Positions 13,747 through 62,573 of a stretch of 64,000 bases of DNA are shown piece after piece. Origin of the DNA: Siphonodentalium dalli (lineage: Eukaryota > Mollusca > Scaphopoda > Gadilida > Siphonodentaliidae); assembly GCA_032622095.1 (NCBI GenBank), contig CP136064.1, positions 191,073,794 through 191,137,793 on the forward strand, given 5' to 3'. Within the stretch, counting starts at the first letter, position 1. Each line of letters begins with the position of its first letter. The notes beneath the pieces were generated by a model that made no database searches, was not told the origin of the DNA, and saw only the letters and a list, made by a program, of their open reading frames with translations. The translations under genes were made by a program, and so were the position numbers.

Positions 13747-14012
13747 TACATTATGTTCTGCATACTTGAGCTTGATCAATCCAATTCCATTGATTTGTTA
13801 CTGAGGTCAGCCATAGACTGAAAATTATTGGCTTCCAATTTATAAAATAATATCGACGACTGTGTTAGATATCATCTTAAAAATGACTTGACATTATATG
13901 TTACTTGATATTTTGAATTTGAATATACTGCTCATAGCAGTTTAGGAGTCTTTGTGCCTTTGGTTAGATACATCCATAATTCCCTATCATTATTAATATA
14001 ATTTGATTGTAG

Positions 14013-14130
14013 ATTTAAAGCAGGAGGATGAGTCTGTTGCGTGACTTGTGATTCTATTGCAATGTCCCTGTCTGCTGAATCCCCACAGTCAGTGTGACGA
14101 AGGTTACATCTGAATTCTCGGAGCCCCCAT
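14013..14130 (+). pseudogene. Decayed tandem copy of exon 6
   Basis: It keeps the acceptor (gattgtag) and aligns along most of exon 6, which starts 141 bp later. Shared blocks are GAGGATGAGT, GTCTGCTGAATCCCC, GTCAGTGTGACG and TCTCGGAGCC. It reads LKQEDE and then reaches a stop (TGA at about 14039). Several codons encoding cysteines are lost and no donor follows. A relic of tandem exon duplication. Confidence 0.8.
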
Positions 14131-14153: not shown

Positions 14154-14336
14154 ATTTGAAGCAGGAGGATGAGTGTTCATTGTGTGACCCGGGATTTTAC
14201 TGTGACGCCCCGGGTCTGCTGAATCCCCGTGGTCAGTGTGACGCAGGATATATCTGCATCCTCGGAGCCTCGACGTCACAGCCAATGGATGGTGTTACTG
14301 GCTCGATCTGTCCAGCAGGTGGATACTGCATACTTG
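14154..14336 (+). CDS. Exon 6 of the GYYC-repeat gene
   Basis: 183 nt, phase 1-1. The acceptor is tttattatag and the donor is G|gtgagc. It encodes ECSLCDPGFYCDAPGLLNPR, GQCDAGYICILGAS and SICPAGGYCILG. One motif has Ile in place of the second aromatic residue (GYIC). As a symmetric exon it could be skipped without frame change. Its decayed duplicate lies directly upstream. Confidence 0.9.
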
Positions 14337-14482
14337 GTGAGCTAATGACTTGCTTACAGATTGGTTTCGATGAAACTTCAATATACATGTAGAAGATATA
14401 TCTTTTGTAGTTTGCTGATTGTATATATGAATCACGCCTTAGCCTACATCTTAATTTTAAATTATAGCTTAAATTATAGGAA

Positions 14483-14867
14483 TTAACCCAACAGAACGGC
14501 CCTGTGCCAATGCATTCTCTTATATATGCGAGTCGACCATAGGTCGCCTCGCATATATAAGAGAATGCATTGGCTTAACACATTAAAAATTGTTAAATAA
14601 TGTAAGAAAAAATGGTAAAAAGTGTTAAAAAAAGATTTTTTTTAGGCCAATGCATTCTCTTATATATGCGAGGCGACCTATGGTCGACTCGCATATATAA
14701 GAGAATGCATTGGCACAGGGCATAACTGTAACCATCACAATGTGGTCAATGAGCCGGTTCCAATGATATCCATATTTGTATGGTTTTATTGAGACAGACC
14801 CAAGATAATTTAGGCTGTTGCAGCTTTATTTGGCCGTTTTTGGCCGGTTTGTTGGGTAAAGGGTTAA
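14483..14867. mobile_element. MITE family B, long subtype, copy 2
   Basis: TTAA-flanked, with ends CCCAACAGAACGG and its counterpart GTTGGGTAAAGGG. It contains two back-to-back GCATTCTCTTATATATGCGA hairpins around a T/A-rich spacer, plus an extra segment (GCTTTATTTGGCCGTTTTTG). The same element occurs inverted at 50401-50881. Confidence 0.75.
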
Positions 14868-16045
14868 ACAATGTATGTGTATCAAATGACTTCAAAACTC
14901 AAAATTATCTACTGACATAACATACTACATAGCCAACTTTTTTTGACACGCGTTTATTTGTAAGTTCCTCAGACCACATTTGTATTCTGAATGTATCTTC
15001 TGATCTACCATAAGATTATATAAAAAAAGATGAGAATATTATTGACTGTTAATTTAAACAAAGGTCTTGATAACTTTTATCTTGACTAAATTTGATGCCA
15101 TGTTAAACACCATGCAATTACACCAATGATATGGAGACCACTGATAATGGGTGGAAACTAATAAAAATAGGTGAACTCTGACAAACTTGTGTGCATATAT
15201 ATGGTGAGAATCAGTACATGTCTATTATTATCATTCAAAAATGTTCTGAGTGATCTACCTTACTCGTATTTAAATTCGCGCAGTACTATTTTTCACGCAC
15301 CCATCGGTGTGCAAATTTAAAACTGAGCGAAAAATGATACGACTTCTGAGTTAAAACTAATTAACCACAGGGAAAACAAGATCGAGGATTATGTTAACGA
15401 GCTACAAATATCACAAAAGGTTGGACACTGAATGGATAATAATGTGTATACATCTAGGCCTATATTTAAATTCGGTCAACCAATATAATAAATTCAACAC
15501 CATTACTCAATGCCAAGCGATGTACAAATCATGGTATACCGTTAAGTCATTGATGCTGAAATGCTTGTAAGAAATACACATATTCTAGATTGCATGTGCA
15601 AGAAAGCACAAACCCCATATCCACTACCCTGGGTATCATGACCATACAGTCTGAGTTAGAAACTGTTGCCTTTGCAGTTGTGTTTTTCTGTTTTCGAGTT
15701 TATTTCAATAATGTCCAGTCCATAACTAATTCAATATCAGTATAAATATTTTAAGCATATAAACATCCATCATCGCAACAAAATGAGGATGCAGTCATGG
15801 TCTAAAAGATGTAAATCCATCGCGATCATCTTTAATATACACATGTGCCTTCAGAAAAGACTAAGAACTGAAACTGTTATCAGATCCAAGAATTTTACAA
15901 AAATATTTTTGTCAGTTTTGAATTTGCGCAGATATGTGCGCGAATTTAAAGTGTGCGAAATTCAAAACTCATGAAAAATAGTACAGCGCAAATTTAAATA
16001 CGAGTAAGGTATGTTTTAATGTTTTTTATCAAATATATATTCTAG
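14868..16045. other. Intron 6 sequence
   Basis: AT-rich, with no exon or transposon end recognised. CTTACTCGTATTTAAATTCGCG near 15261 and AAATTTAAATACGAGTAAGG near 15988 are inverted copies. They may bound a decayed element of about 750 bp (15259-16009). Confidence 0.4.
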
Positions 16046-16243
16046 GTTCCTATGAGGCGAAGCCCTGTCCAGCTGGGACATACAGCAATGAATCTGGAGC
16101 TGTTAACTATTACGACTGTTTCTCATGTGACGTGGGTTATTACTGTTCATCTGTAGCTGGTGGAGAGCCAACTGGTCTGTGTTGGGGCGGATACTATTGT
16201 ACAGGTGGAGCCAAAACACCTCGGCAGAACATTGTAGATCCAG
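16046..16243 (+). CDS. Exon 7 of the GYYC-repeat gene
   Basis: 198 nt, phase 1-1. The acceptor is tatattctag and the donor is CCAG|gtgaga. It encodes AKPCPAGTYSNESG, YDCFSCDVGYYCSS, GEPTGLCWGGYYCTGGA and a Gln/Asn/Asp linker. It shows the typical order CPAGTY, C-x-x-C, GYYC, P-T/S-G-x-C, GYYC. The sequon NES is present. Confidence 0.9.
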
Positions 16244-16414
16244 GTGAGATGTCTATGAATATAATGGAGCATCATTTTCTTTCTATGCTCTCATTACATT
16301 TCTGTACATTTTTGTTGACTTTCTTGTTACCTTACCAGAAAATATTCTTAATAATATTTAAAGATGTGCTCATGGTTCCAGATCTCCAGTTAAAATTTTA
16401 TTTAAATCAAATTT

Positions 16415-17105
16415 TATATGCCCGTTTTGAAAAACCGGTGACGTATTATGTTATTAGTCCATTCGTCCGTTCGTCGTGCCGTCCGTGCTTACATTTGATA
16501 GCTTAAGTGGTCATTTCTTTTGTTCAATTTCTGAAGTGGTTACCACTTAAGATTACCCGTTATTTCATTAATCTCCGCTAATCTCTGGGAGGATAGATTA
16601 ACAAAATAAGGCATGTGTGTAGACTTGTTTCCACTCAGTGCGCAGAGTAAATTTCATAAAAAAAATTGCCAAAATTTCTTTTAAGAAAACGAAGTTCGAA
16701 TTTTGTTAGATAAAGTAGAAAATACCACATAAGATACCATCCATAGGTTCTGTTTCCTTTTTTGTTTCCGGGTGATAACTTTAGTACGTCTGGAATGAAA
16801 TTTCGTATGTGGGTTTACTAGCACAAAATACAGGTCAAATTTGACTCTGTCAAATAGTTCTGGCCGGCAATTTTCAACAGAGCTTCGGCCCTATTTTTTG
16901 GAATTTGCACTCAATTTTCATTTCCGGATGATTACATTTTAGTAAAACTGAACTGAATGGAATGAAATTTGGTATGAGTTTACCAGCCCAAAATACAGGT
17001 CAAGGTCGAATTTGGGTTCTGCCCAACAATTTTCACCAGAGTTATGGCCCTTTGTTGAAATTACCAGAGGCATATTTTGCCATGCCCTAGCGATGCCCTT
17101 GTTTG
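16415..17105. repeat. Interspersed repeat family E, copy 1
   Basis: It begins with CGTATTATGTTATTAGTCC and a GTCCGTTCGTC-type run. It continues with repeats of CGGATGATNACTTTAGTA, GAATGAAATTTGGTATG and CCAGAGTTATGGCCCTTTG, and ends near TATTTTGCCATGCCCTAG. The same string of phrases recurs at 20400-21500, 43050-43431 and 48257-48880. The class is not identified. Confidence 0.6.
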
Positions 17106-17166
17106 ATTTGTTCGGCTGAAAAAACCAATTGTCTAAATAACTTTGTTTGGTATAATTGAATTCCAG

Positions 17167-17380
17167 GACATTTTGCACCTAATGGATCCTATGCGCAGAA
17201 TGAGTGTCGTATCGGCACATACAACCCATACTATGGAGAAGCTGAATGTTTTGTGTGCGAGACTGGTTTCTATTGCCCGGATAAAGCGATGACTAACATG
17301 ACTGCATGTCCTGCGGGGAAGTACTGCGTGAACGGAAGTTATATACCAGAGGACTGCCCGCCTGGAACCTATTCGAACCA
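17167..17380 (+). CDS. Exon 8 of the GYYC-repeat gene
   Basis: 214 nt, phase 1 to phase 2. The acceptor is gaattccag and the donor is CCA|gtaagc. It encodes ECRIGTYNPYYG, ECFVCETGFYCPDKA, ACPAGKYCVNGS and DCPPGTYSN. The exon starts 60 bp after the family E repeat. Sequons NGS and NMT are present. Confidence 0.9.
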
Positions 17381-19931: not shown

Positions 19932-20185
19932 CAAGCCTTGAAATAGGGTGTCTGTCATTTGCAGAATGAGGTCCCCAGAGGGTGAATTTAGTGATGCTAC
20001 CCCGCATAGCGGGTTAGCATCACCAAATTCACCCTCTGGGAACCTCATTCTGCTGAGGTGTAAGCAGAATGAGGTCCCTAGATGGTGAATTTGGTGATGC
20101 TAGCCCGCTATGCGGGGTAGCATCACTAAATTCACCCTCTGGGGACCTCATTCTGCAAATGACAGACACCCTATTTCAAGGCTTG
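19932..20185. mobile_element. MITE family D, copy 1 (hAT-like double hairpin)
   Basis: 254 bp, with ends CAAGCCTTGAAATAGGGTGT and its inverse. It is flanked by GTCATGTA and GTCATGCA, an 8-bp duplication with one change. Inside are two successive hairpins, each made of CAGAATGAGGTCCCC...GCTACCCCGC and complement, so the whole can also fold as one large hairpin. The 8-bp duplication suggests a hAT-type nonautonomous element. Confidence 0.8.
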
Positions 20186-26065: not shown

Positions 26066-26319
26066 CAAGCCTTGAAATAGTGTGTCTGTCATTTGCAGAA
26101 TGAGGTCCCCAGAGGGTGAATTTAGTGATGCTACCCCGCATAGTGGGCTAGCATCACCAAATTCACCCTCTGGGAACCTCATTCTGCTGAGGTGTAAGCA
26201 GAATGAGGTCCCCAGAGGGTGAATTTGGTGATGCTAGCCCGCTATGCGGGGTAGCATCACTAAATTCACCCTCTGGGGACCTCATTCTGCAAATGACAGA
26301 CACCCTATTTCAAGGCTTG
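26066..26319. mobile_element. MITE family D, copy 4 (hAT-like, clean 8-bp duplication)
   Basis: 254 bp, almost identical to the copy at 19932. The target duplication ATCTTATT is exact (26058-26065 and 26320-26327). It inserted at the left edge of a family C element. Near identity between copies 6 kb apart suggests recent activity. Confidence 0.85.
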
Positions 26320-28815: not shown

Positions 28816-29077
28816 GACATTACTGTGAGAGTGGCTCATCAGCACCAGCACCATGCACAGCTGGGACGTACACCAATCAGACGAGGAGCGTGAGTTGCCT
28901 GAATTGTCCAGCTGGTTACTATTGTCCCATCGGCACCAGCGATCCAGTTCCCTGTCCAGAGGGACATTACTGTTCTGCCCAGCAGCAGACAGCCTTTGTA
29001 TATCCTTGTCCTGTCGGCACATTCAACAACATCACGATGCAGCAAACTGTATCCGATTGCACCAGCTGCCCACCAAC
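28816..29077 (+). CDS. Exon 14 of the GYYC-repeat gene
   Basis: 262 nt, phase 1 to phase 2. The acceptor is aatttgtag and the donor is CCAAC|gtaaga. It encodes HYCESGSSAPAPCTAGTY, SCLNCPAGYYCPIGTSDPVP, CPEGHYCSAQQ, YPCPVGTFNNIT and DCTSCPPT. Very regular spacing, close to consensus. Sequons NQT and NIT. Confidence 0.92.
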
Positions 29078-29483: not shown

Positions 29484-29550
29484 AAGCAATACTGTGGTAG
29501 ACATGGGTTATCGGCGCTGCTGTGAGACTGATTCTGGATAGTATTTTTAA
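29484..29550 (+). pseudogene. Decayed copy of exon 15 5' half
   Basis: CAATACTGTGGTA, TTATCGG and GAGACTG match the start of exon 15 (30089 on) in order and spacing. The acceptor-like ttcattataag precedes it. Read in the exon 15 frame it gives QYCGRHGLSALL and then a stop. Confidence 0.75.
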
Positions 29551-30087: not shown

Positions 30088-30281
30088 ACAATACTGTGGT
30101 ACGCAGGGATTATCGGTGCCGTCAGGAGACTGTGATCCTGGCTGGCATTGTGTGTCAGGTGCCGTGTCTGCCCAGCCGTCGGATGCCAGCCAGGGTGGCC
30201 AGTGCCAGCCAGGATATTACTGTCAAGGCGGGAGCTCCACACAGACTCCATGCACACCCGGGATGTACTGCCAAGATCCAG
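30088..30281 (+). CDS. Exon 15 of the GYYC-repeat gene
   Basis: 194 nt, phase 2 to phase 1. The acceptor is ccttttacag and the donor is CCAG|gtgggt. It encodes QYCGTQGLSVPSGDCDPGWH, CVSGAVSAQPSD, GQCQPGYYCQGGSSTQ and PCTPGMYCQDPG. Four aromatic-Cys steps lie in 65 codons. GC content is higher than in neighbouring exons. Pairs with exon 14. Confidence 0.92.
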
Positions 30282-30920: not shown

Positions 30921-31185
30921 TTAACCCTTTCACGATGGGAGCTGTGCTTGTGCAGCATTAAAGATCATGTGCCAGTGCATTCTCTTATATATGCAATTCT
31001 CCCATAGGGAGCCTCGCATATATAAGAGAATGCATGTCTTACAAGGTCAAGGTAAATATTGTTAGGCAATGTATGCTCTTATATATGCAAGGCTCCATAT
31101 GGGAGAATCACATATATAAGAGAATGCATTAATTGGCACAGGGTTTTCGCAAAATTTCAGAAATCTCAAATCATGGAAGGGTTAA
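30921..31185. mobile_element. MITE family B, copy 4
   Basis: TTAA-flanked (30921-30924 and 31182-31185). Two hairpins with GTGCATTCTCTTATATATGC, separated by AAGGTCAAGGTAAATATTG. Same insertion as copy 11 in the other arm of the inverted duplication. Confidence 0.8.
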
Positions 31186-31429
31186 GGCAAGTGTGTATGC
31201 TGGTTGGCAATGTTTAATAGTATCGGAACTGTAATAGAAAACAAAATTTCTCAATAATATGGTTATCAACTTTAGTACAGTCTCTTTTGTTGAGAAACCA
31301 TAGGAGTTTCTTCCCAAGGGAATAATCTCTATATTGATTGATATTACATAAACCACTCACAAATCAGCTGAACTGAATCATTATTCAAAAAGTTAATACA
31401 ACTCTTTTACCATTTCATTTTATTTGCAG

Positions 31430-31516
31430 GTTTGGCTCTCCCATCCGGAAATTGTTCAGCAGGCTACTATTGTTCAGCGGGATCTCCAACTCCTACCCCT
31501 GTTGGACAAGCTTATG
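31430..31516 (+). CDS. Exon 16 of the GYYC-repeat gene
   Basis: 87 nt, phase 1-1, the shortest exon. The acceptor is tttatttgcag and the donor is TATG|gtatgt. It encodes LALPSGNCSAGYYCSAGSPT, then PTPVGQAYG. It supplies one GYYC step and the N-C-S sequon. Symmetric and therefore skippable. Confidence 0.88.
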
Positions 31517-34266: not shown

Positions 34267-34506
34267 GAGATGAGTGTCCAATGGGTCAGTTTTGTATCGA
34301 TGGGAGCGCCAATGGTACCTACTGTCCTCCATCAACATTTCTCAATGAAACCAGGTCAAGATCAGAATCAGACTGCATGCAGTGCATCATGGGATACTAT
34401 TGTTCTGGATATGGAAACATTAACCCTACTGGTCCCTGTGATGAGGGGTACTATTGTCCAGCCGGAATGAATATGTCCAGTCCGGCAGAATATATCTGTT
34501 CTCAAG
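34267..34506 (+). CDS. Exon 17 of the GYYC-repeat gene
   Basis: 240 nt, phase 1-1. The acceptor is cttttatag and the donor is CAAG|gtaaga. It encodes DECPMGQFCIDGSANGTYC, PPSTFLNETRS, DCMQCIMGYYCSG, PCDEGYYCPAGMNMSSPAE and ICSQG. Its end starts the block that is repeated without introns in exon 28. Sequons NGT, NET and NMS. Confidence 0.92.
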
Positions 34507-36578: not shown

Positions 36579-36740
36579 GTCACTATTGTCCAGTTGGCAG
36601 CCATGAAGTAATTAGGTGTGAATCAGGAACGTACCAGGATGAAACAGGACAGGGCTCATGTAAAGTCTGCCCTGCTGGTTTCTACTGCGATAACACAAGG
36701 GAACCAGTTGTTCTGTATAACAGTACCTACTGTCCACCAG
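36579..36740 (+). CDS. Exon 18 of the GYYC-repeat gene
   Basis: 162 nt, phase 1-1. The acceptor is tatttctgcag and the donor is CCAG|gtgagt. It encodes HYCPVGSHEVIRCESGTYQD, SCKVCPAGFYCDNTREP and VVLYNSTYCPPG. The string CDNTxEPVVLYN recurs in exon 28. Its 3' end and donor are the evident source of the adjacent minisatellite. Confidence 0.92.
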
Positions 36741-37240
36741 GTGAGTGGTCAGGTTGGGCGAGGAACCAGTCGTTCTGTAAAATAGCATCTATACTGTCCA
36801 CCAGGTGAGTGCTCAGGTGTGGTACTGGAACCAGTTGTTCATGATGTCTACCAGGTGGGTGCTCAGGTGTGGTACTTGGAACCAGTTGTTCATGATGTCT
36901 ACCAGGTGGGTGCTCAGGTGTGGTACTTGGAACCATTGGTTCCTGATGTCTACCAGGTGGGTGCTCAGGTGTGGTACTTGGGACCAGTGGTTCCTTATGT
37001 CTACCAGGTGGGTGCTCAGGTGTGGTACTTGGGACCAGTGGTTCCTTATGTCTACCAGGCGGGTACTCAGGTGTGGTAAGGAACCAGTTCTTTATGTCTA
37101 CCAGGTGGGTGCTCAGGTGTGATAAGGAACCAGTTGTGTTTCTGCTGTTCGCCAGGTGAGTACTCTGGTGTGTTGCTCTGTAGCATATCTTCTGTCCACC
37201 AGGTGGGTCTTCAAACTGAACATTGAACCAGTCTTCTGTG
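36741..37240 (+). repeat. Minisatellite derived from the exon 18 3' end and splice donor
   Basis: About eight units of mostly 51 bp. Each unit reads GGAACCAGTTGTTC, a short spacer, TCTACCAGGTGGGTGCTCAG and GTGTGGTACTT. It matches the end of exon 18 (GGAACCAGTTGTTCTG ... CACCAGGTGAGT) plus the first intron bases. Every unit therefore carries a donor-like CCAGGTGGGT or CCAGGTGAGT. Units in the middle are most alike; both edges are more diverged and closer to the exon sequence. Confidence 0.88.
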
Positions 37241-37802: not shown

Positions 37803-37971
37803 GCTACTTCTGTCGGAATGGAACGAGATATGATACAGAGTTCCCTTGCCCTCTTGGAACATATAGCAACAGAACCGGTCTGCAGGAGGAGGCAGACTGT
37901 AATGCCTGCCCAGGAGGATATTTTTGTGATTCGACAGCACAAACAGACTACAGCAAGATATGTGAAGCTGG
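37803..37971 (+). CDS. Exon 19 of the GYYC-repeat gene
   Basis: 169 nt, phase 1 to phase 2. The acceptor is tctttactcag and the donor is GCTGG|gtaata. It encodes YFCRNGTRYDTE, PCPLGTYSNRTG, DCNACPGGYFCDST and ICEAG. The last Gly codon is split GG|A, as in exon 2. Sequons NGT and NRT. Confidence 0.92.
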
Positions 37972-39510: not shown

Positions 39511-39689
39511 ATATTACTGTCGACAGCGAGCTGAATCAGGAACGCCCAATCAAGGTTACGATGCTGATGAGTGTCCGCATGGGTTTTATTGTCCGCAGCA
39601 GACGTCTGAGTCACAGAAATGTCCCCTTGGAACGTACTCAAACAGCAGCCGCCTCACGGCCATCACGGAATGCATGAACTGTACTGCAG
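39511..39689 (+). CDS. Exon 20 of the GYYC-repeat gene
   Basis: 179 nt, phase 2 to phase 1. The acceptor is tttcttccag and the donor is GCAG|gttaga. It encodes YYCRQRAESGTPNQG, DECPHGFYCPQQTS, KCPLGTYSNSSR and ECMNCTAG. Pairs with exon 19 as a phase 1-1 module of 116 codons. Sequon NSS. Confidence 0.92.
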
Positions 39690-40111
39690 GTTAGAGAATA
39701 AATCATAACTTTTCACAACCCTAGAACATTGAAGAAGACTCAGGGTTCTTAGCTATGTTTTTTCCATCAATGTTGTGATGGGCTATTTACTTAAATATTT
39801 CTTATTATCGCAAAATGTCAGATCACCTGAATATTGTGTTCTTGGGCAACATCACACATAGGGGATTTTTTCATTTTCGTATGTCAACAGAGGCTATTAC
39901 AGAGCATGAACCCATCAACATCACATTGTAGTCAAAGTGTGACTTTGTATAATTTTTTCTAGCAGTCTCATTTGTGATACCCACTACCGGTAATAGATGT
40001 TGCGTAAATTTTTAGTAAGGTAATCCCTCACAGGTAGGCCAAAATTTCTGTAAATTGTACCCTAGGCCTGCTATTTGGTAACACGTATAACCATAACAAA
40101 TTTTGTGGTTC

Positions 40112-40175
40112 TTGTTTAGCAGGATATTACTGTCGTTCAGGTGCATATAGTAGCATGTATATAGAGTGTACTCCT
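40112..40175 (+). pseudogene. Decayed partial copy of exon 21
   Basis: TTGTTTAGCAGGATATTACT, GGTGCA, AGTAGCATGT and ATAGAGTGT match exon 21 at 40259-40322 in order. The internal TTTAGCGG of exon 21 has become TTTAGCAG here, an acceptor-like sequence in the right phase. It would read YYCRSGAYSSMYIECTP and stop about 10 codons later. Confidence 0.8.
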
Positions 40176-40216: not shown

Positions 40217-40372
40217 GTTTTTACTGTGGAGACTTTAACTTGACGGAGCCTAGTGGTCCTTGTTTAGCGGGGTATTACTGTCCATCGGGTGCAGACAGTA
40301 GCATGTTTTTAGAGTGTCCGGTGGGATCATATTGTCCAGAAAGCAGCTTCAATCCATTGCTCTGTCCTAATG
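40217..40372 (+). CDS. Exon 21 of the GYYC-repeat gene
   Basis: 156 nt, phase 1-1. The acceptor is attgtttcag and the donor is AATG|gtaagt. It encodes FYCGDFNLTEPSGPC, LAGYYCPSGADSS, ECPVGSYCPESS and LLCPNG. The start matches the YCSDFNMT end of exon 28. Sequon NLT. Confidence 0.92.
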
Positions 40373-41024: not shown

Positions 41025-41138
41025 GCACGTTTGGTAATTCAACAAATCTGCAGTCAGTGTCTGATTGTACACTCTGCCCAGGAGGATATTACTGTGGTAG
41101 TGAAGGATTAACCCAACCCACCGGATTATGTGGAGAAG
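41025..41138 (+). CDS. Exon 22 of the GYYC-repeat gene
   Basis: 114 nt, phase 1-1. The acceptor is aatattgtag and the donor is GAAG|gtaggt. It encodes TFGNSTNLQSVSDCTLC, PGGYYCGSEG and LTQPTGLCGEG. It begins exactly at the Gly of a CPxGTF step shared with exon 21. Sequon NST. Confidence 0.9.
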
Positions 41139-57747: not shown

Positions 57748-57912
57748 GTTACTATTGCCCAGCGGGTGCAGCAAATTACACTGACTATCCCTGTCCAGCG
57801 GGGTACTATTGTACAAACTCAACACAGTATTGGAATCAGTATTCATGTGGTGTGGGGACATACAATAACATGAGTGAGAGAACTAAACCAGAAGATTGCC
57901 TCCCTTGTTTAG
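57748..57912 (+). CDS. Exon 26 of the GYYC-repeat gene
   Basis: 165 nt, phase 1-1. The acceptor is ctgttccag and the donor is TTTAG|gtatgt. It encodes YYCPAGAANYTDYPCPAGYY, CTNSTQYWNQ, SCGVGTYNNMSE and DCLPCLG. Joined to exon 25 it gives CPAG-YYCPAG, which skips the usual PSGxC step, so an exon may be missing before it. Sequons NYT, NST, NMS. Confidence 0.9.
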
Positions 57913-58580: not shown

Positions 58581-58865
58581 GTGGATATTATTGTGAACAA
58601 ACTGGATTATCTGCCCCTAGTGGATTGTGCACTGCCGGGTTTTACTGTAGTGGTGGCTCCGCAACAGCCATGCCATCTGGTGTTGGAGGTGATGAATGTA
58701 CAGCTGGTTACTATTGTCCAGAGGGGGCATCATACCCTGTGCCCTGTACACCGGGACATCACTGCGGGAATAACAGGCTTAACCAGACATCGGGGCTGTG
58801 CTTGTCTGGTTATTATTGCGCAAGACTGGCTGAAGTTCCCAACCCAACTGACGGAAATGTAACAG
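58581..58865 (+). CDS. Exon 27 of the GYYC-repeat gene
   Basis: 285 nt, phase 1-1. The acceptor is aatatttttag and the donor is ACAG|gtaaac. It encodes GYYCEQTGLSAPSGLCTAGF, YCSGGSATAMPSG, ECTAGYYCPEGASYP, PCTPGHHCGNNRLNQTSG, LCLSGYYCARLA and a linker ending NVTG. Five aromatic-Cys steps. Sequons NQT and NVT. Confidence 0.92.
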
Positions 58866-59903: not shown

Positions 59904-60707
59904 GTGATATCTGTCCACAAGGAAGCTATTGTCCAGAAGGAAGTGCAGCCCCGAGTCTGTGCCCGGATGGCAGCTTTATCAACAGCACGGGAAACCATGC
60001 TGAATCTGATTGTGTGGCATGTACAGCGGGCCATCACTGTGCAGGAAGCGGCAACATCCTCCCATCAGGATTATGTCAGGCAGGGTACTACTGCCCAGGT
60101 GGAGTAGACAATCCAACACCTCCAGAATACAACTGCACGATTGGTCATTATTGTCCTGAAGGCAGCTCCGAACCAATCAGATGCTGGTCTGGATCATTCC
60201 AAGATGAGATACTGCAGTCGATGTGTAAAAACTGCCCGGCCGGATATTTCTGCGATAACACCATTGAACCTGTTGTTCTGTACAATAATTCTGCATGTCC
60301 TGTCGGTTTCTATTGTCCAGAAAACACAACTTTTAACACCCAATATCCATGCCCGACAGGAATGTTTAGTAATATCACAAATCGTGTGGATGTCACAGAA
60401 TGTCAGCTCTGCTCTGGTGGTCGTTATTGTGAGACTGAAGGCTTATCTGAACCGAGCGGTGAATGTGCCCCTGGGTACTTCTGTATAATCGGATCTAACA
60501 GTTCAACACCAGTAGAGGGAGATAACTATGGAGTGTGCCCAGAAGGGTTCTATTGTCCAGCAGGAAGTGCCACTCCACAATCTTGTCCTCCTGGCACCTA
60601 TAATCCAGCCATCGGCAGACAAAACATTGATGAATGCACTAATTGTACGGGCGGACATTATTGCTCTGATTTCAACATGACGGCAGCTGGACCTCAGTGC
60701 GCTGCAG
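59904..60707 (+). CDS. Exon 28 (804 nt) of the GYYC-repeat gene
   Basis: 268 codons, phase 1-1, more than twice any other exon. The acceptor is accaattacag and the donor is GCAG|gtaagg. In order: DICPQGSYCPEGS, LCPDGSFINSTG, CVACTAGHHC, GLCQAGYYCPGG, CTIGHYCPEGSSEPIRC, CKNCPAGYFCDNTIEPVVLY, ACPVGFYCPENT, YPCPTGMFSNIT, CQLCSGGRYC, ECAPGYFCIIGSNSS, VCPEGFYCPAGS, SCPPGTYNP, CTNCTGGHYCSDFNMT. From GLCQAG onward it aligns collinearly with exons 17-21 but lacks their four introns. Several sequons. Confidence 0.95.
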
Positions 60708-61397: not shown

Positions 61398-61580
61398 GAT
61401 ATTACTGTCCGACTGGGTCTGATGAATCCACAGAGATACAGTGTACAGCTGGTCATTACTGCACAGACGGCAGTCTGACACCCACACCCTGTTCACCTGG
61501 GACCTTCTCCAGCACACCTGGTCTGACTGCTCAATCACAATGTACCAACTGCACGGCAGGATTCTACTGCCCCGATTCAG
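61398..61580 (+). CDS. Exon 29 of the GYYC-repeat gene
   Basis: 183 nt, phase 1-1. The acceptor is ttgaattgcag and the donor is TCAG|gttagt. It encodes YYCPTGSDESTEIQC, TAGHYCTDGSLTPTP, CSPGTFSSTPG and CTNCTAGFYCPDSG. It continues the collinearity of exon 28 with exons 21-22. The open phase 1 end means the gene goes on beyond the window. Confidence 0.92.
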
Positions 61581-61589
61581 GTTAGTCTA

Positions 61590-61752
61590 CAGTAATGCCC
61601 TGAATAATCGACTCCTTAACCACAGCAGAATTATGGGTAACTTTCAGGATTTAGTCGGAAATATGGCTTGTTGCCATTCTTCGGAAAGCTCTCACTGTGA
61701 ATGGCAACAAGCCATATTTCCAACTAAATCCTGAAAAGTTACCCATAATTCT
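61590..61752. mobile_element. MITE family A, copy 12
   Basis: CAGTAATGCCCTGAATAATC starts 9 bp after the exon 29 donor. The right end is truncated after ACCCATAATTCT. Confidence 0.82.
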
Positions 61753-61818
61753 ACACTAGTAGCCTGCTGAACAATTTCCTGATGGGAGAGCCAAACCTGC
61801 AAATAAAATGAAATGGTA

Positions 61819-62089
61819 TTAACCCTTTCATGACAGGAGATGCGCTGGTGCAGCATTAAAAATCATGTGCCAGTGCATTCTCTTATATATGCAAGTCTCC
61901 CATAGGGAGCCTCACATATATAAGAGAATGCACTGGCTTACAAGGTCAAAGTAAATATTGTTAGGCCAATGAATTCTCTTATATACACGTGTATGTGAGG
62001 CTCCCAATGGGAGACTCACATATATAAGGGAATGCTTTGGCACAGGGTTTTCACAAATTTTCAGGAAGTTCCAGTCATGAATGGGTTAA
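61819..62089. mobile_element. MITE family B, copy 10
   Basis: TTAA-CCCTTTCATGACAGGAG to CATGAATGGG-TTAA, with two complete hairpins joined by AAGGTCAAAGTAAATATTG. The best-preserved short-subtype member. Confidence 0.85.
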
Positions 62090-62307
62090 TGAGTGACACA
62101 ACTTTTTGACAAACAATTCAGTTTAGCTTATTTGTGAGCGGTTTATGTAATATCAACCTATATAGACATTATTCCCTTAGGAAGATACTCATATGGCTTC
62201 TCAACAAAAGAGACTGTACTAAAGTTAATAACCATATTATGGAGAAATTTTGTTTTCACAGTTCCGATACTATTAAACATTGCCAACCAGCATTCACACT
62301 TGCCTTA

Positions 62308-62573
62308 TTAACCCTTCCATGACTGGAGATTTATGAAATTTTGCGAAAACCCTGTGCCAATTAATGCATGCTCTTATATATGTGATTCTCCCATATGGAG
62401 CCTCACATATATAAGAGCATACATTGCCTAACAATATTTACTGTGACCTTGTAAGACAGTGCATTCTCTTATATATGTGAGGCTCCCTATGGGAGAATCG
62501 CATATATAAGAGAATGCACTGGCACAGGATCTTTAATGATGCACAAGCGCAGCTCCCTTCATGAAAGGGTTAA
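62308..62573. mobile_element. MITE family B, copy 11
   Basis: TTAA-CCCTTCCATGACTGGAG to TTCATGAAAGGG-TTAA. The counterpart of copy 4 within the inverted duplication. Confidence 0.83.

Follow-up and report, generated by a model that had tools for sequence, protein, structure and literature searches.

The 804-nt exon 28 of a predicted gene for a cysteine-rich repeat protein is an intronless counterpart of an earlier block of the same gene, reaching from exon 17 to the middle of exon 21 and split by four introns. The two blocks belong to copies, here called A and B, of an in-frame internal tandem segmental duplication that we regard as near certain. The reading that we prefer, with a probability of roughly 55%, is that introns were lost mainly in copy B, as a comparison of the two copies suggests. 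We infer this direction of change, which one DNA stretch, here a window of 64,000 nucleotides, does not settle.

A predicted gene for a cysteine-rich repeat protein

Based on reading frame, homology and splice signals, 28 exons were predicted on the + strand (1862-61580), all of them with AG/GT borders, and together they form a single 1982-aa frame without a stop codon; their numbering, 2-29, matches that of the first-pass annotation, and the window revealed neither end of the gene. Introns are named by the exons on either side. The predicted exons that enter the comparison are listed here.

14154..17380, + strand: exons 6-8, a partial and more distant third copy that pairs locally with exons 16-19
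28816..29077, + strand: exon 14, whose second half is the start of copy A
30088..30281, + strand: exon 15, copy A
31430..31516, + strand: exon 16, copy A
34267..34506, + strand: exon 17, copy A, paired with exon 28 over the latter's first 80 aa
36579..36740, + strand: exon 18, copy A, with the highest conservation of all pieces (it agrees with exon 28 in 36 of 54 aa)
37803..37971, + strand: exon 19, copy A, with the lowest conservation (18 of 56 aa)
39511..39689, + strand: exon 20, copy A; intron 19/20 is in phase 2
40217..40372, + strand: exon 21, copy A, continuous across the site of the copy B intron 28/29
41025..41138, + strand: exon 22, copy A, the last A exon that is matched within the window (by exon 29)
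57748..57912, + strand: exon 26, copy B, matching the end of exon 14
58581..58865, + strand: exon 27, copy B, matching exons 15 and 16 jointly, without intron 15/16
59904..60707, + strand: exon 28, copy B, 804 nt, phase 1 at both ends, with an open frame, AG/GT borders and an ungapped 268-aa match
61398..61580, + strand: exon 29, copy B, matching the end of exon 21 and the start of exon 22, without an intron at the 21/22 site

Exon 28 is bordered by ttacag/GTGATA and GCTGCAG/gtaagg and is open across its full length. This eukaryotic repeat gene is cysteine-rich and of an extracellular type, and in its predicted protein the cysteine-rich units, which are of the Ephrin_rec_like (GCC2/GCC3) type, form an array. 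In a Pfam scan (E <= 0.01), matches to this family were found in 8 of the 28 exons, with exon 28 reaching 23.4 bits against PF07699, for which the Pfam gathering cut-off is 23.1; the other matches among the 28 exons were single and weak (TNFR_ELAPOR1_6th, NCD3G and Toxin_7), and the same scan revealed no kinase domain. When the exon profile was compared with solved structures, Mst1 (PDB 8tx1) was the sole match at E <= 0.001, its E value of 2.4e-14 being the sum of seven weak stretches, and ephrin type-A receptor 4 followed at a non-significant E of 0.1. Exon 28 alone had no match in the PDB at E 0.01, and its single-sequence structure model was too poor for use (mean pLDDT 33.6). One scan each of a viral contig and a genome contig collection found no relatives, and the window gave no matches in Rfam (gathering threshold) and tRNA scans. 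The introns favour a particular kind of site: 21 of the 27 lie within glycine codons, which make up 248 of the 1982 codons, and 20 are in phase 1.

An old duplication within the gene

Self-comparison of the protein is dominated by one ungapped diagonal of 462 aa with a score of 1061, the next diagonal scoring 341. It pairs residues 830-1291 (copy A, exons 14-22) with residues 1518-1979 (copy B, exons 26-29) at a period of 688 aa, beginning in exon 14 for A and in exon 26 for B, and the homology runs to the last exon found within the window; a gapped alignment of the copies contains 461 aligned residues and 210 identities. An offset of about 688 was the best partner for all nine 100-aa windows starting at 801-1201, and ranked third for the one starting at 751. 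Such long, collinear similarity at one offset, clearly exceeding what the basic repeat itself shows, is characteristic of a tandem segmental duplication.

Within the diagonal, the stretch from the start of exon 17 to the middle of exon 21 (protein 966-1233) matches exon 28 (1654-1921) over 268 aa without a gap, with 127 identities (47.4%), or 76 of 198 once Cys and Gly columns are removed. The best ungapped 268-aa window on the A/B diagonal scores 779; across the other 1673 diagonals the best windows score -171 on average (SD 68), and the runner-up reaches 249. The pairing of exon 28 with this block had been proposed in the first-pass annotation, and the motifs quoted there do occur in both blocks in the same order, with four introns (17/18, 18/19, 19/20 and 20/21) in the A block and none inside exon 28; the alignment is far better than between random repeat pairs of this protein, and the internal segmental duplication that was suggested is solid. 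Collinearity had been followed into exon 29 and exons 21-22, and its actual extent is larger, beginning in exons 14 and 26.

At identical G/A/P/T/V codons of the two copies the third base agrees in 24 of 85 cases, where composition predicts a fraction of 0.29. Silent sites are thus saturated, so the duplication must be old and intron sequences can no longer be compared; indeed, no similarity was found between introns 16 and 27, which occupy the same site, or between introns 14 and 26. Identity is 47% in exon 28, 45% downstream and 42% upstream, and among single exons compared with exon 28 it is high for exon 18 (67%) and low for exon 19 (32%). A gene-conversion tract in exon 28 was considered and rejected, as there is no clear excess of identity over the whole exon.

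Different introns in two matching copies

Over the aligned stretch copy A has eight introns and copy B three. Only one is exactly shared, 16/17 in A and 27/28 in B, which lie at the same codon and in the same phase, while 14/15 (phase 2, A) and 26/27 (phase 1, B) are 4 nt apart. Six introns are found in A only (15/16, 17/18, 18/19, 19/20, 20/21 and 21/22) and one in B only (28/29, inside the exon 21 of A). At 17/18 to 21/22 no residue has been gained or lost, the alignment being gap-free over exons 17-22 and 28-29, so that the differences at these sites are exact, with certainty if the predicted exons are right; near 15/16 the alignment has two single-residue gaps, at least 25 residues away. 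The introns missing from B do not form one run, as 15/16 is cut off from the rest by 27/28, and 21/22 by 28/29. No AG/G scar is left in B at 17/18 to 21/22, although a scar would not survive saturation, and A itself has two introns at these sites that lack AG/G.

Exon 28 contains ten glycine hinges, in which CxxG precedes aromatic-x-C or a similar pattern, and no intron lies in any of them. Its length by itself is not unusual, since a longest exon of at least 804 nt arose in 48% of 20,000 trials in which 27 introns were placed at random in 5949 nt; it is an outlier because the other 27 exons are so regular (87-341 nt), and only a fraction of 0.0001 of the random trials combined a longest exon of at least 804 nt with a second longest that did not exceed 341 nt. 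Having three introns or fewer in the 462 aa of B is not significant (P = 0.10). The probability that eight and three introns share at least one position by chance is 0.05 if any codon may be hit, and 0.28 if introns are restricted to glycine codons.

The third copy upstream offers a limited view from outside. Intron 7/8 lies at the codon and in the phase of 17/18, in two MAFFT runs and in a pairwise alignment, and B has no intron there. An offset of about 690 is favoured by all three third-copy windows at 251-350, 301-400 and 351-450, whereas windows starting at 1-201 and 401-751 favour other offsets, and when the entire upstream part was scanned in bands, offset 684 came fifth by total score. 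We therefore rejected a complete upstream third copy of the 688-aa unit as an outgroup, the support being local, and used it solely for 17/18.

Elsewhere in the protein, 42 other ungapped repeat pairs have one intron coincidence at the same codon, against null means of 0.7 for uniform placement and 2.7 for placement restricted to glycine codons. This sole case joins 22/23 (41138/41762) with 28/29 (60707/61398), which agree in codon and phase when the repeats are paired in another register (1231-1313 versus 1847-1929). Gapped alignments add 10/11 with 22/23 and 25/26 with 28/29 at the same codon, and 2/3 with 20/21 at the same codon in differing phases. Coincidences in other registers are thus to be expected at favoured codons, which weakens the argument from 7/8 and 17/18, a match that could be due to chance at a favoured glycine codon. 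Since coincidence in the 42 pairs is at chance level, a mismatch of introns such as that between A and B is the rule in this gene. Among the best eight paralogous windows for each of the six A-only sites, which overlap and in part match poorly, an intron is present at the same codon in 4 of 48, and two more lie one codon away.

Proposed intron loss in copy B and its alternatives

In the history that we favour, an old in-frame tandem duplication of period 688 aa would have been followed by independent changes of introns in A and B. Copy B would have lost, exactly, the introns at 17/18 to 20/21, as well as 15/16 and 21/22, giving rise to the long exon 28, and 28/29 would have been either lost by A or gained by B. 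Loss in B is favoured because the differences are exact, because four of the sites are adjacent and because 17/18 recurs in the third copy; an age before the split of A and B thus has outside support for this one of the six A-only introns. The simplest known route to an exact loss of four neighbours would be for the gene to recombine with a reverse transcript of its mRNA, and as a molecular route this would fit. The six introns missing from B would require two such events, or three if 28/29 predates the losses. The first-pass annotation had offered a precise loss of neighbouring introns, possibly via cDNA recombination, as one possible history, and this is partly supported: it is compatible with the exactness at four sites, but the missing introns do not form one run and 28/29 goes the opposite way, and outside support for an older age is limited to one A-only site in six. 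The 4-nt offset between 14/15 and 26/27 resembles intron sliding, and an independent origin of the two introns is also possible.

Another event, in which copy B entered the gene as an insertion copied from the spliced mRNA of exons 17-21, would explain why exon 28 equals the spliced sequence from exon 17 to the middle of exon 21 without a gap, but we consider it very improbable. At the same offset exons 26, 27 and 29 are homologous too, introns 26/27, 27/28 and 28/29 are present, and exon 28 terminates within the exon 21 of A, whereas the homology of a processed insert would not reach beyond the insert itself. For exon 28 itself, a processed-copy origin was rejected on account of the intron-bearing homology in exons 26, 27 and 29 along the 462-aa diagonal.

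Gain of introns in A, which the first-pass annotation had named as its own alternative, is unlikely but more serious; here an ancestor with few introns, like B, would have been duplicated and A would have gained introns at glycine hinge codons (CxxG/YxC) afterwards. It would account for the 44 of the 48 listed paralogous windows at A-only sites that have no intron at the codon, and for the chance-level coincidence in the 42 repeat pairs, as expected if introns followed those duplications; the concentration of introns in glycine codons and in phase 1 also agrees with it, as does intron 15, which is 83% covered by repeats. On the other hand, six gains would be required within 1.4 kb of coding sequence, and intron 17/18 recurs in the third copy. 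Introns 17, 20 and 21 contain no repeat-derived sequence, with 0 bases similar to other introns of the gene (E 1e-4), so that for these three the sequences lend no support to an origin from transposons. The repeats in introns 18 and 19 end 32 and 15 nt before the intron end. In intron 15 the repeats cover 948 of 1148 nt and reach the 3' end, this end part being covered because the junction with exon 16 has been copied into intron 29. In any of these introns, age would hide an old insertion. Flank copies of the kind left by AGGT-type tandem duplication were not found at 15/16, 17/18, 18/19, 19/20 and 21/22 (z < 1 at both ends); the exception is 20/21, where the intron start has a modest likeness to the start of exon 21 (z 3.3, with 1.3 at the end).

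Alternatively, both copies may have passed through full turnover, with several losses and gains in each, and the one shared intron would then be a coincidence at a favoured glycine codon. The saturation of silent sites (24 of 85 against 0.29 expected), the probability of 0.28 for at least one shared intron under glycine restriction and the coincidences seen in other registers are all in line with this; nevertheless we find it doubtful, given that two of the three B introns either coincide with an A intron or are 4 nt away from one. More speculatively, the gene as a whole might be a hot spot where introns are gained at glycine hinge codons, mostly CxxG and mostly in phase 1, an idea to which we give still less weight. 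If it were true, each copy of the repeat would have taken up introns of its own once duplicated, repeats with unrelated intron positions would have come to resemble exon modules, and exon 28 would keep the original intronless state.

Repeated sequences in the introns

Several repeats and exon-like sequences were observed in the introns of the predicted gene. At the start of intron 18 (36700-37210) lies a minisatellite with units of about 64 and about 51 nt, which look like the end of exon 18 together with its 5' splice site (CCACCAG/GTGAGT, later CTACCAG/GTGGGT) and thereby form a row of candidate donors; over the final 41 nt of exon 18, the first unit agrees with the exon at 84%. Intron 29 carries, on the minus strand at 61753-62392, an inverted copy of the junction of intron 15 and exon 16 (31101-31473), in two pieces that are 91% and 97% identical and include the first 44 nt of exon 16. 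This inverted copy adjoins a broken palindromic repeat, and its longer piece is partly repeated elsewhere in the window.

Decayed exon copies occur in the introns directly upstream of exon 6 (14003-14125, 79%, with stops) and of exon 21 (40105-40169, 85%), and a weaker copy of exon 15 (29487-29545, 74%, E 2e-4, absent at E 1e-6) is located some 540 nt upstream of that exon. All three resemble remnants of exons that were duplicated locally in tandem.

A palindromic repeat with the ends TACAGTAATGCCC is found at 2013-2217 and 61588-61752, and in introns 3, 5, 11, 13, 15, 18, 23, 25, 27 and 29, with 25 alignments of its 91-nt half; the repeat begins 7-8 nt from the 5' splice site in introns 2 and 29. 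In addition, introns 9 (19961-20156) and 12 (26095-26290) each contain a tandem pair of a near-identical, partly palindromic unit of 103 nt.

Implications and comparison with known systems

Two clear copies within one gene that have the same protein layout and different introns provide a natural paired comparison for the study of intron loss and gain. In addition, they advise caution about exon shuffling: since most intron positions here are not common to the repeats, phase-1 exons that match repeat units need not imply it. The gene is a clear but ordinary example of intron loss or gain after duplication, of a kind already known, and as a single case it leaves the general view unchanged.

Adjacent intron losses by way of reverse-transcribed mRNA are described in studies on Cryptococcus (PMC2395259) and Drosophila (PMC3296678), the latter stating that such loss leaves no distinct signature. 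As in those cases, several neighbouring internal introns are absent here while the protein is unchanged and flanking introns are kept; unlike them, our comparison is between internal paralogous segments and not orthologues, the missing introns are not contiguous and the direction of change is only inferred (PMC2395259, PMC3296678). The mixture of gains, losses and suspected sliding recalls the bilaterian alpha-amylase genes, for which the data are from across species, whereas here the two copies reside in one gene (PMC3096672). The Cryptococcus gene CNN00420 likewise has a repeat-rich coding region with a varying number of introns, and its repeat expansion recently multiplied whole introns that are near identical; by contrast, the repeats described here are old, and introns at matching sites have no sequence in common (PMC2395259). 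With the Chlamydomonas mastigoneme protein Mst1 and with ephrin receptors, the predicted protein would share only the type of cysteine-rich repeat.
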